DNA of 64,000 nucleotides, from positions 310,001 to 374,000 of the forward strand of contig NZ_VAWF01000003.1 in assembly GCF_005869845.1 (NCBI RefSeq), in the 5' to 3' direction. Positions 40,337-46,795 of the stretch are shown one piece after another. Numbering within the stretch: position 1 is the first letter of the stretch; each line of letters begins with the position of its first letter. The notes beneath the pieces are model-generated. The model was not told where the DNA came from and ran no database searches. It saw only the letters and a program-made list of their open reading frames with translations. The stretch comes from Fodinibius saliphilus (GTDB taxonomy: Bacteria; Bacteroidota; Rhodothermia; Balneolales; Balneolaceae). Position numbers and translations under genes: made by a program.

Positions 40337-41680
<1,344 letters not shown>

Positions 41681-41786: not shown

Positions 41787-42893
41787 ATGAATACCTTCGA
41801 AATTACATATCTGGTAACCTTGTTAGAAGGTGAAGATATTAATGAGAAGGTTGAATCTATTTGCCTGGAACAATCGGTTGAGTTGCCCAGAGCTTTGTTA
41901 GATGGTCATGCTAAAGAAGAAATAGTCGGAGAAACTGTTTACAAAGAGAAGAGGAGAGAAGGTGAATATGAGGTTGTAATTGCTTGGCCGATTGCAAACC
42001 TTGGGGGCGAAGTTACACAGTTTATAAATGTACTGTATGGGAATATTTCTCTTAAACCGGGTATTCGTATAACCGGTACTGATTGGACTGAGCTATCAGA
42101 TCTTCTTAATGGACCGGCTGTAGGGATGAAAGAAGTGCGTAGCCGGTACCAGCTTTCAGATCGCCCATTAAGTGCAACGGCTTTAAAACCTGTTGGGAGT
42201 ACTTCTGCCGAGCTCGCCGATTATTGTTACCAATTTGCTTGTGGGGGTATCGATATTATCAAAGATGATCATGGCCTTGCGAATCAGGTAAATGCTCCTT
42301 TTTTAGAAAGACTAAATGCCTGTGTGAAAGCAGTTGATAAAGCTGCAGAAAAGACCGGGGATCGTTCATACTATTATCCCAACATTACCGCTACACCTGA
42401 ACGGACTGTGGAGCGGTATAGAAAGGCAGCAGAGGCTGGGGCAGATGGAGTACTGCTTTGTCCTCATATCAGTGGGCTGCCAACGATGCACTTGTTAGCT
42501 CAGATGGAGATCAATTTGCCAATAATTGCTCATCCGGCTTTTTCGGGACAGCTTACTACACACAAGACCAAGGGTTTTACTCCAAGCTATTTATATGGGC
42601 AATTATGGCGGGCTTTTGGGGCAGATTATGTGATCTATCCCAATAAAGGAGGGCGGTTCACACTGGATACTGATGAATGCCAATCTATCAACCGGGCAGC
42701 ACGAACGGTGGATTTGCCATTTAAAACCTCATTTCCAATGCCCGGTGGTGGCATAAAGCTTTCAAATGTGGATCATTGGATTGCAGAGTATGGGCTAGAT
42801 ACCACATTTTTGATCGGTAGCAGTTTATATGAACATCCTGAAGGAATTAAGCAAGCAGTACAAAAGCTGCGTGCTAAACTTATGACGAGTTGA
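41787..42893 (+). CDS. RuBisCO-like protein (form IV)
   Basis: This 368-residue protein has the RuBisCO large-subunit fold but not the full active site, so it should not fix CO2. K134 in ALKPVG matches the first catalytic lysine. K159 and D161 in IIKDDHGL match the carbamylated lysine and Asp of KDDE, but the Glu is His (H162). AHPAFSG replaces the HRA loop, YPNKGGRF takes the loop-6 region and MPGGG the late glycine motif. It is shorter than usual (about 410-430). Known RLPs act in methylthioadenosine salvage, the MTA-isoprenoid shunt or apionate breakdown. A cupin gene starts 9 bases after its stop. The substrate is unknown. Confidence 0.88.
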   Translation: MNTFEITYLVTLLEGEDINEKVESICLEQSVELPRALLDGHAKEEIVGETVYKEKRREGEYEVVIAWPIANLGGEVTQFINVLYGNISLKPGIRITGTDWTELSDLLNGPAVGMKEVRSRYQLSDRPLSATALKPVGSTSAELADYCYQFACGGIDIIKDDHGLANQVNAPFLERLNACVKAVDKAAEKTGDRSYYYPNITATPERTVERYRKAAEAGADGVLLCPHISGLPTMHLLAQMEINLPIIAHPAFSGQLTTHKTKGFTPSYLYGQLWRAFGADYVIYPNKGGRFTLDTDECQSINRAARTVDLPFKTSFPMPGGGIKLSNVDHWIAEYGLDTTFLIGSSLYEHPEGIKQAVQKLRAKLMTS

Positions 42894-42902
42894 TATAGTG
42901 AT

Positions 42903-43355
42903 ATGGAGTCTAAAGTAGTTAAATGTTCGGATTATGAGTGGGATTCAGTGTCTCACAAGGAGTACAAGGATGATCAGAGTTGCTATAAGGGAGTACAACG
43001 TTACTCCTTACTGGGAACAAGAAATGATGAACAAGCATTGAACTTTGAAACTCGGTATTTTGAAGTAGAAACGGGAGGCTATACTTCTTTTGAATATCAT
43101 CGTCACCCACACTCTGTTGTGGTTATTCGTGGGATGGGAACCGTTATATTGGATAATGAAGTTTGTGAGTTATCGCTGCATGATGTTGTTTATATTGCAC
43201 CGAATACCCTGCATCAATTTCATGCCGATCATGGAGAATCATTAGGATTTATCTGTACTGTTGATCGCTATCGAGATCGTCCAACTTTACCGGATAAAGA
43301 TAAAATTGATGATATTGTTGAATCAGAAAAAGTCCGCAAAAAAATTAAAATTTGA
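42903..43355 (+). CDS. Cupin-domain protein paired with the RuBisCO-like protein
   Basis: This 150-residue single cupin fold has the metal-site motif FEYHRHPHSVVVIRGMG (63-79, H66/H68/H70). The second motif is IAPNTLHQFHADH (98-110) with P100, H104 and H107. GFICTVDRYRDRP places a cysteine at 118. It begins 9 bases after the RLP stop and is surely co-transcribed. In Rhodospirillum rubrum an RLP gene neighbours a cupin that acts as methylthioxylulose-5-phosphate methylsulfurylase, so a similar two-step role is an attractive hypothesis. Sugar-acid isomerase or regulatory roles are alternatives. Confidence 0.82.
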   Translation: MESKVVKCSDYEWDSVSHKEYKDDQSCYKGVQRYSLLGTRNDEQALNFETRYFEVETGGYTSFEYHRHPHSVVVIRGMGTVILDNEVCELSLHDVVYIAPNTLHQFHADHGESLGFICTVDRYRDRPTLPDKDKIDDIVESEKVRKKIKI

Positions 43356-43401: not shown

Positions 43402-43473
43402 GCGGGAATAGCTCAGTGGTAGAGCATCTCGTTGCCAACGAGAAGGTCGCCAGTTCGAATCTGGTTTCCCGCT
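43402..43473 (+). tRNA. tRNA-Gly (anticodon GCC)
   Basis: A complete cloverleaf: acceptor GCGGGAA with TTCCCGC, D-arm AGCTCAGTGGTAGAGC, anticodon stem TCTCG/CGAGA with loop TTGCCAA (anticodon GCC), and T-arm with GTTCGAATC. The discriminator base is T73 and the CCA tail is not encoded. A strong terminator follows. Confidence 0.96.
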
Positions 43474-43477
43474 CAGA

Positions 43478-43512
43478 TAAAAAGCCCTTGCAGCTGTTGC
43501 AAGGGCTTTTTT
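43478..43512 (+). terminator. Intrinsic terminator of tRNA-Gly
   Basis: The stem AGCCCTTGCA (43483-43492) with TGCAAGGGCT (43498-43507) and a five-base loop is followed by a T-run to 43512, starting 5 bases after the tRNA. Confidence 0.9.
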
Positions 43513-44012: not shown

Positions 44013-45029
44013 ATGAGAAAAATATACCAGCTGTTTATTATTGTATTTATTCTATCGGTAAATAGCTGTGTTCCAGATGGTTCGCCTGATGATCAAGAGT
44101 TAAAGGATGTTACAGTTGGTATTACTTCTTCATTTATAGGAGAAGCTGCAATTTTTGTAGCAAAAGAAAAGGGTTTATTTAAAGAAAATGGATTAAATGT
44201 ATCCTTAAAACATAACCAGTCCGGTACTGCTTCTATTCATGATCTTTTCGATAAGGTAGTAGATATTGCCCATGTAGCCGAAACTCCTGTTGTCTATTCA
44301 CTGGTTGACTCTTCTTACTACCCAAAAGGTACGCCGCCGGAATTACAGATAATAACGAACCTGCTTATTACTGATGAAGTCCAAAAAATAGTTGCACGAA
44401 AAGATCATGGTATTACAGGTCCCAAGGATGTTATTGGTAAGAAGGTTGCATTGGCAAAAGGGACCCAGTTGGAGTATTATCTCGACTCATTTCTCTTGGA
44501 ACATCAAGTACTTAAAGACAGTTTGACTATTGTCGATCTAAGCCCTCTCTCTCAGGTAGAAGCCCTTAGAGAAGGCAGAGTAGATGTCTCAGTAAATTGG
44601 GAGCCCTATGCAACATTTTCAGAACAACAGTTGGGGCCGAAAAGTATATTATTAAAAACAAAACTTCACTACTCCACACTTTGGTTAGTTTCAACACTCA
44701 GCTCATTTGCTAAATCCAATCCTGAAATATTAACAGCTTATTTAAAAACGTTATATCAGGCCAACAACTATATTGAAAAAAATGGATTAGAGGCCCGAAA
44801 AATATTATCTGCTAATATAGAAGTGCCGGTGAGCGCGATCGACTCTGTTTGGCAGAAAATTGATTATAAACTGTCAATGAGTGAACGTATGATTCAGTTG
44901 TTTGAAGATCAGGAGCGATGGTTAATAAGAAAAGGAAAAGCAGATACTACGAATCTGAATTATATAAATCTAATAAACACAACGCCGCTAAATGAAGTAG
45001 ATCCTGAAGGTATTACCCTTATAAAATGA
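44013..45029 (+). CDS. Orphan NMT1/SsuA-like periplasmic substrate-binding lipoprotein
   Basis: This is a 338-residue type II periplasmic binding protein of the NMT1/SsuA/TauA-like (nitrate, sulfonate, taurine, thiamine-precursor) class. It has a lipoprotein signal with acceptor C19 (VNSC). The opening TVGITSSFIGEAAIFVAKEKGLFKENGL (about 34-61) is the family hallmark, and the second lobe has VDVSVNWEPYATF. No ABC permease or ATPase is present. Its stop overlaps the start of a histidine kinase gene by 4 bases, so it more likely presents a ligand to the kinase than feeds a transporter. The ligand is unknown. Confidence 0.85.
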   Translation: MRKIYQLFIIVFILSVNSCVPDGSPDDQELKDVTVGITSSFIGEAAIFVAKEKGLFKENGLNVSLKHNQSGTASIHDLFDKVVDIAHVAETPVVYSLVDSSYYPKGTPPELQIITNLLITDEVQKIVARKDHGITGPKDVIGKKVALAKGTQLEYYLDSFLLEHQVLKDSLTIVDLSPLSQVEALREGRVDVSVNWEPYATFSEQQLGPKSILLKTKLHYSTLWLVSTLSSFAKSNPEILTAYLKTLYQANNYIEKNGLEARKILSANIEVPVSAIDSVWQKIDYKLSMSERMIQLFEDQERWLIRKGKADTTNLNYINLINTTPLNEVDPEGITLIK

Positions 45030-46795
45030 AGTTAATAAACCGTTTAAATATTATTGCTGCTTGTTCTGTCGGTGTACTTGTACTGACATTTGGGCTATTG
45101 TGGTATTCAAAAGCGCAACTAAGTAACCAACTAGAAAGTTTAAATAGGCTTAACGAATTTGAGAATACCGCATCCAATGTTCAAACAGTTGTTGGAGGAT
45201 ACTTGGCAGATGGGAAAGTGCGCCATCTAAATGCTTGGGGTAGACTATATCATGAACTCCAAGTCGATATTGACTCAACAGATGACCTGCCGCGAAGAAA
45301 AGCGATGAAAAACTACATGGAGTCTATTAAAGATGCCTTTGAATTGATTCGGGAAATTAAAGAGAATCCCCAACACTATGAAGAAGAACGGAAAGAGCAA
45401 CTATTGGAACGGGCAGAGGCAAGGATACGAGCTGATATTCAGATGTTTAAATCCATTGCGTACACCGTTACCAATAATTTACAGGCTGATATCCAATCTC
45501 AGCAAAAGTACCAGCTTGTATTATTACAATTTCTTATGATACCGGCTGTTTTTATTATTTCCTTTCTCATTTTTCGTTTTCGCAGGCGTCTAAATTATTC
45601 TCTTGACACCCTATTAAATGGAACAAAACAAATTGCTTCAGGCGATCTGGATGTCGCAATCGAGCTGGAAGGAGAAGGTGAACACACAAAGTTAGCGAAA
45701 GAGTTTAACAGGATGACCAGGAAATTGCAGAAAAAGATTGAGGAGTTAGAAGAGAGCCGAAAAAAGATTGATCAAAACAGGAAGCGATGGGAAAAGCTTG
45801 TGGAACAAGATCCAAACCTGGTCATGATTCATATTGATGGAATCGTGAAGTTCATAAACCCTGCCGGGGTAAACCTAATTGGTGCAGTGTCTGCAGAAGA
45901 AGTGGAGGGTTTAAATATTTATGATCTTATCGAAGAGTCCCAGCTTGAAAAAGCACTTGTACGGGTATCACAGGTACAAGAGTCCAAAGAAAAAGTATCA
46001 CCAACGACCTATAAGGTTACTTCTCTAAAAGGGAAAGAACGCTATGTTCAGTTAGAATCAATGCCCATTAAATATGATGACAGGGATGCTACACAAACGG
46101 TAGGACTCGATATTACTGAACGAGTACGCTACGAAAAAGAGATGAAAAAATCGCTTGAGGAAAAAACGGTATTGCTAAAAGAAATTCACCACCGGGTTAA
46201 AAACAACCTGGCCGTAATATCAGGACTGATGGAATTACAATCTATGCAAGCAGATGATACCCATTTTGCCAGCAAGTTACGGGCAAGTCAGCTACGAATT
46301 CAATCTATCGCATCCATTCATGAATTATTGTATCAAAGTGATAATTTTTCAGATTTAGAGTTCCATACACAGATAAAAAAATTAGTAAATACCGTAAAGG
46401 AAACATTAGTATCTGATGTATCAATTGAAATTAATTATGACCTGGATCATGTAGTTATTAATGTGAATAAGGCAATACCAGCAGCACTTATCGTAAATGA
46501 ATTGGTTTCAAACGCTTTAGAACACGCATTCTCAGGCACAGAGTATGGAAAAATTGATATAACGCTCCGCGAAAGAGAAAAGCAAATAGTCCTTGAGGTG
46601 ACTGATAGTGGGCAAGGAATCTCCAACGACCTTGATTTAGAGAAACCTGATACCTTAGGGTTAAAATTGATAAATATCCTTACCAAGCAGCTAGGTGGAG
46701 ATATTGAATATCACTCCAGCATTGAAGGCACTACATTTGTGCTTGCTTTTAAAAATGTTGCTACGAAGGGTATTGGGAGCCACCATTTAAACTAA
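45026..46795 (+). CDS. Membrane histidine kinase, HAMP-PAS-HisKA_2-HATPase
   Basis: This 589-residue sensor kinase has a first span at about 8-27, an extracytoplasmic helical domain (28-162), a second span at about 165-183, HAMP (185-238) and a coiled coil (235-255). PAS follows (about 253-365), then HisKA_2 with EIHHRVKNNL at 386-395 and HATPase_c with the N-box ELVSNALEHAF and VTDSGQGIS. HisKA_2 kinases often signal to diverse or distant regulators. The overlap with the upstream binding-protein gene suggests that the lipoprotein is its sensing partner. No response regulator is adjacent. Confidence 0.9.
   Translation: MKLINRLNIIAACSVGVLVLTFGLLWYSKAQLSNQLESLNRLNEFENTASNVQTVVGGYLADGKVRHLNAWGRLYHELQVDIDSTDDLPRRKAMKNYMESIKDAFELIREIKENPQHYEEERKEQLLERAEARIRADIQMFKSIAYTVTNNLQADIQSQQKYQLVLLQFLMIPAVFIISFLIFRFRRRLNYSLDTLLNGTKQIASGDLDVAIELEGEGEHTKLAKEFNRMTRKLQKKIEELEESRKKIDQNRKRWEKLVEQDPNLVMIHIDGIVKFINPAGVNLIGAVSAEEVEGLNIYDLIEESQLEKALVRVSQVQESKEKVSPTTYKVTSLKGKERYVQLESMPIKYDDRDATQTVGLDITERVRYEKEMKKSLEEKTVLLKEIHHRVKNNLAVISGLMELQSMQADDTHFASKLRASQLRIQSIASIHELLYQSDNFSDLEFHTQIKKLVNTVKETLVSDVSIEINYDLDHVVINVNKAIPAALIVNELVSNALEHAFSGTEYGKIDITLREREKQIVLEVTDSGQGISNDLDLEKPDTLGLKLINILTKQLGGDIEYHSSIEGTTFVLAFKNVATKGIGSHHLN

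Follow-up and report, generated by a model that had tools for sequence, protein, structure and literature searches.

The window, by which we mean the whole stretch of 64,000 nucleotides that was analysed, comes from a Balneolota-type genome of 3.6 Mb in 11 contigs. Two neighbouring open reading frames on the + strand are the subject of this analysis: a RuBisCO-like protein (RLP) of 368 amino acids (41787..42893), predicted to be a 5-methylthioribulose-1-phosphate 1,3-isomerase, and a cupin of 150 amino acids (42903..43355), predicted to be a 1-methylthioxylulose-5-phosphate methylsulfurylase. Both lie where the original prediction had placed them, with 9 bases between them; they are two separate ORFs, which rules out a fusion of the two in the window. 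Upstream of the RLP is purA (40367-41680, named by eye), and 46 bases past the cupin stop lies a tRNA-Gly (gcc; 43402-43474), after which a terminator-like hairpin with a T-run can be recognised by eye (stretch 43402-43500). The Rfam search of the window matched two tRNAs only, and no riboswitch. Further downstream (44013-46795) are genes that look by eye like an NMT1/THI5-type substrate-binding-like lipoprotein followed by a sensor histidine kinase. The nearest named RLPs among the matches listed are those of Fodinibius roseus (59% identity to the window RLP) and F. sediminis (56%).

The RLP is clearly a member of the RuBisCO superfamily (PF00016, 76.6 bits against a cut-off of 30.1). Its top PDB match is 3qfw (1.8e-57), followed by MtnW enolases (2.9e-43), and a profile of 19 RLP sequences gave the same order, with 3qfw at 389 bits and an MtnW next at 237. 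We take 3qfw to be RLP1 of R. palustris; it is 378 amino acids long, carries KDDHGLADQ and is 34% identical to the window RLP. The original prediction that the lysines matching K175 and K201 and the Asp are kept, with His for the Glu, is borne out by K134, K159, D161 and H162, respectively, with K175 and K201 given in spinach numbering. The K159-D-D-H162 motif (42261..42272, + strand) thus consists of the carbamylation-site lysine, the metal Asp and a His replacing the Glu of RuBisCO and MtnW. With His162 in the place of the metal-binding Glu of KDDE, a carboxylase identity for the window RLP was rejected. The active-site set shared with 3qfw comprises K134, K159, D161, H162, H249, G288-F291 (GGRF), P319, G321 and G322 (PxGG). 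In the alignment, the His of KDDH is found in 31/31 transketolase-partner RLPs and in 50/51 cupin-partner RLPs, the latter comprising 31 loci with the cupin no more than 1 kb away, 19 rows of alignment A1 from genomes in which a cupin is present though not always adjacent, and 3qfw, placed in this class as the presumed R. palustris RLP1. KDDH, the trait behind the suggestion of novelty, can therefore be regarded as a mark of the RLP family. Glu occupies the position in 2/2 MtnW rows and 3/3 Chlorobi-type rows.

The cupin exceeds the PF07883 cut-off (33.0 bits against 27.2), and its PDB matches are 3ibm (1.7e-35), 3kgz (7.6e-26) and 3jzv, which is named Rru_A2000 (3.4e-20). Identity is 44% to 3ibm, the nearest solved structure, and 37% to 3jzv; 3ibm is presumably from H. 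halophila and 3kgz from R. palustris. Sixty cupins were aligned, namely 30 of the 31 found in the scan across bacteria described below (that of L169, on the opposite strand, is absent), 26 of the 27 phylum loci, the window cupin and the three solved structures; the 27th phylum locus is the window's own and was counted once. Fourteen positions are invariant in all 60, Rru_A2000 included, and the window cupin retains every one of them (W13, Y21, R51, F53, E64, H66, H68, H70, G77, D94, H104, F116, C118 and V120). From the cupin fold, the invariant E64-x-H66-x-H68-x-H70 (43092..43112, + strand) is the probable metal site, to which the equally invariant H104 (43212..43214, + strand) would probably contribute a further ligand. 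The invariant C118 (43254..43256, + strand) is a candidate for thiol chemistry and may be catalytic.

The window RLP was then used to search 296 genomes of the phylum (E <= 1e-10). Matches were obtained in 97 of these, 27 with a window-type RLP (E <= 4.2e-38) and 70 with weaker matches only (24-30% identity). The cupin was sought in 48 genomes, made up of the 27, one genome with another type of RLP (G231, 28% identity) and 20 listed RLP-negative genomes, all of the window's family, with 179 further RLP-negative genomes lying outside this sample. It was present in 27/27 genomes with the window-type RLP and in 0/20 of those with no RLP match, and G231 is also without it. Furthermore, the RLP and the cupin are jointly present or jointly absent within each of the genera g1, g5 and g8, and therefore shared descent alone is not a sufficient explanation. 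The pairing is far beyond chance, and the joint role that had been proposed for the two genes survives this check of conservation. The two genes lie within 1 kb of each other on the same strand in 17 of the 27 genomes, and are non-adjacent in the other 10, being about 5-12 kb apart in eight and on different contigs in two. In G018 and G030 the gene caller missed a cupin adjoining the RLP, as the search positions show. The order purA-RLP-cupin recurs across families, and the recurrent neighbours identified by clustering are the cupin, purA and genes that look by eye like housekeeping ones.

A scan across bacteria with cupin-type RLPs as query gave 574 RLP loci, and the best 80 of these were analysed. 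A cupin lies no more than 1 kb from the RLP at 31 of the 80 and a transketolase at another 31; no locus has both, and 18 have neither. The cupin is on the strand of the RLP at 30 of its 31 loci in this set; at the transketolase loci the C-terminal half shares the strand of the RLP in 31/31 and is accompanied by the N-terminal half in 28/31. At three of the 31 cupin loci the RLP and the cupin are fused in a single ORF, two of them in anammox records (Scalindua L153 and Brocadiaceae L157) and one in a Chitinispirillaceae record (L155). Fusions suggested by ORF length at L143 and L148 proved to be artefacts, with the RLP and the cupin in different frames. When the genomes behind 44 of the loci were searched throughout, a cupin was found for 8/8 cupin loci, 3/9 loci with neither partner and 2/27 transketolase loci (L137, where it is weak, and L141), 13 in total. 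Because of these last two genomes, the mutual exclusion of cupin and transketolase is strong but not absolute at the genome level.

This division is reflected in a careful maximum likelihood tree of 101 RLPs, from which the incomplete RLP of L108 was dropped, as from the other trees, and which has no row for R. rubrum's own RLP. One side (support 99/93) holds 46 rows, 31 with a transketolase, 14 with neither partner and one with a cupin. The other holds 53, namely 30 with a cupin, 19 of the window's class, three with neither partner, 3qfw and none with a transketolase. Only two changes of partner are needed on the tree. A quick tree agreed with it, and in another quick tree, built with the Chlorobi rows omitted, the root divides the cupin side; the cupin side as a putative single clade is weakly supported in the careful tree (79/43), and may instead represent the ancestral state. 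The window RLP falls on the cupin side with 3qfw, inside a branch of 29 rows (98/96) and apart from MtnW and the Photo-type RLPs, as a DeepYkr-type RLP would. The main reason for caution is that its percentage identity to the transketolase-partner RLPs (median 38%) is higher than that to 3qfw (34%). Position 227 of the window RLP is His, and Gly in 31/31 transketolase-partner RLPs.

In Amnibacterium (L169) and Bifidobacterium (L159), the RLP of this family is immediately preceded by homologues of MtnK and MtnA, and both genomes have a cupin, which links the RLP and the cupin to the salvage of methylthioribose in bacteria other than the purple ones. The L169 cupin comes right after the RLP but is encoded on the other strand, for which reason a single MtnK-MtnA-RLP-cupin operon was rejected there; it occupies the end of an ORF of 509 aa whose only Pfam match is the cupin.

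In the source genome of the window, mtnA is present on another contig than the pair (TIGR00512, 449.8 bits, cut-off 279), with no recognised salvage genes beside it. It occurs in 10/10 RLP genomes checked and also in 5/7 RLP-negative relatives of known status, and is therefore not specific to the pair. The genome also has dxs and an O-acetylhomoserine sulfhydrylase (TIGR01326), each over its cut-off; with dxs present, the shunt discussed below is not required for 1-deoxyxylulose-5-phosphate (DXP). The TIGR01694 cut-off for MTA phosphorylase (MTAP) is reached in 0/48 genomes. The source genome has three weaker relatives, the best at 93.6 bits. It carries two purine nucleoside phosphorylases and an MTAP-like protein (L094:5239-6024; 94 bits, cut-off 274.85), the latter adjoining a protein that resembles methylthioribose kinase (82.8 bits, cut-off 275). 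No match to MtnD (ARD), MtnB or MTA nucleosidase was obtained in this genome. It had been claimed that the window holds no MTA phosphorylase, kinase or isomerase gene, and indeed all of the genome's matches to mtnA, MTAP and methylthioribose kinase lie elsewhere. As a side observation, the two sub-cut-off genes follow ABC importer genes on contig C2 (L094:1637-7060), and of the 12 genomes in which the kinase was looked for, only the source genome and G274 showed such an adjacent MTAP-like/kinase-like pair.

From these sequence comparisons, we consider it very probable that the window pair catalyses the two steps that characterise the MTA-isoprenoid shunt, the first of the options in the original prediction; the tree position with 3qfw, the cupin residues and the co-occurrence all support this reading. 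MtnA would provide 5-methylthioribulose-1-phosphate, which the RLP would isomerise to 1-methylthioxylulose-5-phosphate, and the cupin would then release methanethiol from this to leave DXP. The DXP could feed the MEP isoprenoid route, whilst O-acetylhomoserine sulfhydrylase could convert the methanethiol to methionine. Flux would presumably run in this direction, and methylthioribose-1-phosphate may be supplied by a purine nucleoside phosphorylase or by the MTAP-like protein. The further proposal of a new reaction is disfavoured, with the RLP on the side of 3qfw and the pathway genes mtnA and dxs present, even though identity to 3qfw is 34%.

The shunt itself has been described in R. rubrum, where Rru_A2000 is the cupin-type MTXu-5P sulfurylase and Rru_A1998 the RLP, and similarly organised RLP-cupin homologues are named from R. 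palustris, Meiothermus, Nitrococcus and Halorhodospira in the same paper (PMC4958253). In a second study (PMC5893883), a deletion mutant, labelled metabolites and an enzyme assay showed R. palustris RLP1 to be the isomerase, and deletion of the cupin caused methylthioxylulose-5-phosphate to accumulate. A review covers the same shunt (PMC6302742), and a 2023 survey applies existing KOfam profiles for both enzymes (PMC10663253), so that the RLP and the cupin belong to annotated families. The R. rubrum and R. palustris systems (Rru_A1998/RPA2169 and Rru_A2000/RPA2170) resemble the window in their neighbouring RLP and cupin, KDDH, invariant cupin residues and mtnA. In contrast to these proteobacterial systems, the window is Balneolota-type and has purA upstream, its proteins are only 34% (RLP to 3qfw) and 37% (cupin to 3jzv) identical to theirs, and its genome is without an MTA phosphorylase over the cut-off. 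The H. halophila pair named in the first of these papers is from a different phylum but has a cupin (presumably 3ibm) 44% identical to that of the window; the RLPs of the Ectothiorhodospiraceae loci L122 and L129 fall in the window's 29-row branch. An RLP-cupin pair in Balneola-type bacteria is undescribed in the open-access literature searched, most subscription journals lying outside it; the papers it turned up mention RuBisCO-like proteins solely among their references. The window would thus extend the shunt, known from purple bacteria, to Balneolota-type bacteria, where it would combine sulphur salvage, methanethiol release and isoprenoid supply.

Of the other readings, an unlikely one is that the natural substrate of the RLP is the 5-deoxy analogue, derived from 5'-deoxyadenosine, which would be 1,3-isomerised directly to DXP with the cupin in a side role. 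MtnA enzymes accept 5-deoxyribose-1-phosphate, and the failure of all 48 genomes to reach the MTA phosphorylase cut-off would suit such a substrate. However, a cupin of the methylthio-removing type, with its invariant residues kept, is present in 27/27 genomes with the window-type RLP, and its known reaction, removal of the methylthio group, would serve no purpose on a deoxy substrate. A chance neighbourhood of the RLP and the cupin, each with a function of its own, is very unlikely: the genomes in which they are about 5-12 kb apart (8/27) or on different contigs (2/27) might point that way, but the two are jointly present or absent even when apart, and single-ORF fusions exist.

Action of the RLP on some other sugar phosphate, for example as a decarboxylase or transcarboxylase in apionate catabolism, is in our view highly improbable. 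It would accord with a non-carboxylase RLP, and the original prediction had associated the motifs of the window RLP with a different branch that includes apionate-pathway enzymes. That association is not supported, since the shorter length and KDDHGL also fit 3qfw, GGRF is common to nearly the whole RLP family, and the OiaX model, whose cut-off is 700, gives 71.6 bits. In the PDB search 3nwr, which we take to be a transcarboxylase-type RLP, scored 56 bits against 198 for 3qfw, and the recurrent neighbours are the cupin, purA and apparent housekeeping genes noted above. Finally, it is scarcely credible that the RLP is MtnW, the Bacillus/Geobacillus DK-MTP-1P enolase of universal methionine salvage, which is likewise of the RuBisCO superfamily with an MTA-derived phosphate substrate and whose models are the best NCBIfam matches, as the score of 198.4 bits is under both cut-offs (409 and 513.6), KDDE is KDDH in the window RLP, MtnW forms a separate branch, and the source genome has no match to ARD or MtnB.

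The partner gene, cupin or transketolase, offers a simple genomic rule for interpreting the many members of this RLP family (574 loci from a single scan), and the partner split also suggests, on the transketolase side, a new pathway that could be tested. The 31 transketolase loci among the best 80 of 574 (L110, L112, L114, L117, L118, L120, L121, L123-L125, L127, L128, L130-L132, L135-L138, L141, L142, L145, L152, L156, L160, L161, L165, L170, L172, L175 and L176) have a transketolase C-half, joined by the N-half in 28 of the 31, upstream of the RLP on the same strand, and never a cupin within 1 kb. Their RLPs (L120, L160, L161, L165, L172, L176 and others) are like that of the window in family, KDDH and the median identity given above, but differ from it in their partner, transketolase halves instead of the cupin, and in the Gly at position 227. 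The flanking stretches contain an mtnA homologue at 9/31 and an mtnK homologue at 7/31 of these loci, and the kinase of L160 exceeds the methylthioribose-kinase cut-off. An apparent lack of the ThDP motif in the transketolase N-halves (2/25 by pattern) was overturned by alignment: SDGE occupies the place of the expected GDGE, and ThDP binding is therefore plausible.

The chances seem to us about even that the RLP family provides one common isomerase module to which different outlets are attached, the methylsulfurylase cupin in the window and a dedicated split transketolase in the sister branch, the latter representing an undescribed salvage route in which methylthioxylulose-5-phosphate (or DXP) would be cleaved to glyceraldehyde-3-phosphate and a two-carbon fragment. 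On the same reading this route would span Bacillota, Actinomycetota, Chloroflexota, Spirochaetota and others, and at some loci the transketolase is encoded together with a sugar ABC importer as well as methylthioribose kinase and MtnA homologues. The RLP-transketolase module is not described in the open-access literature searched, which leaves most subscription journals outside. For Brachyspira, one paper lists mtnK, mtnA and a two-gene transketolase far apart by locus number, and draws no link between them.

The source genome also contains a second, very divergent RLP of 445 amino acids on contig C4 (L040:7761-9098), just over the PF00016 cut-off (30.7 bits against 30.1). PADLOC gave no match for this RLP itself. 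It stands in a row with what could, by eye, be a membrane protein and with a GNAT-type protein that falls just short of the cut-off; next to these are McrC and an AAA protein that has an EVE domain and is McrB-like in its position. The RLP may be part of a defence island.
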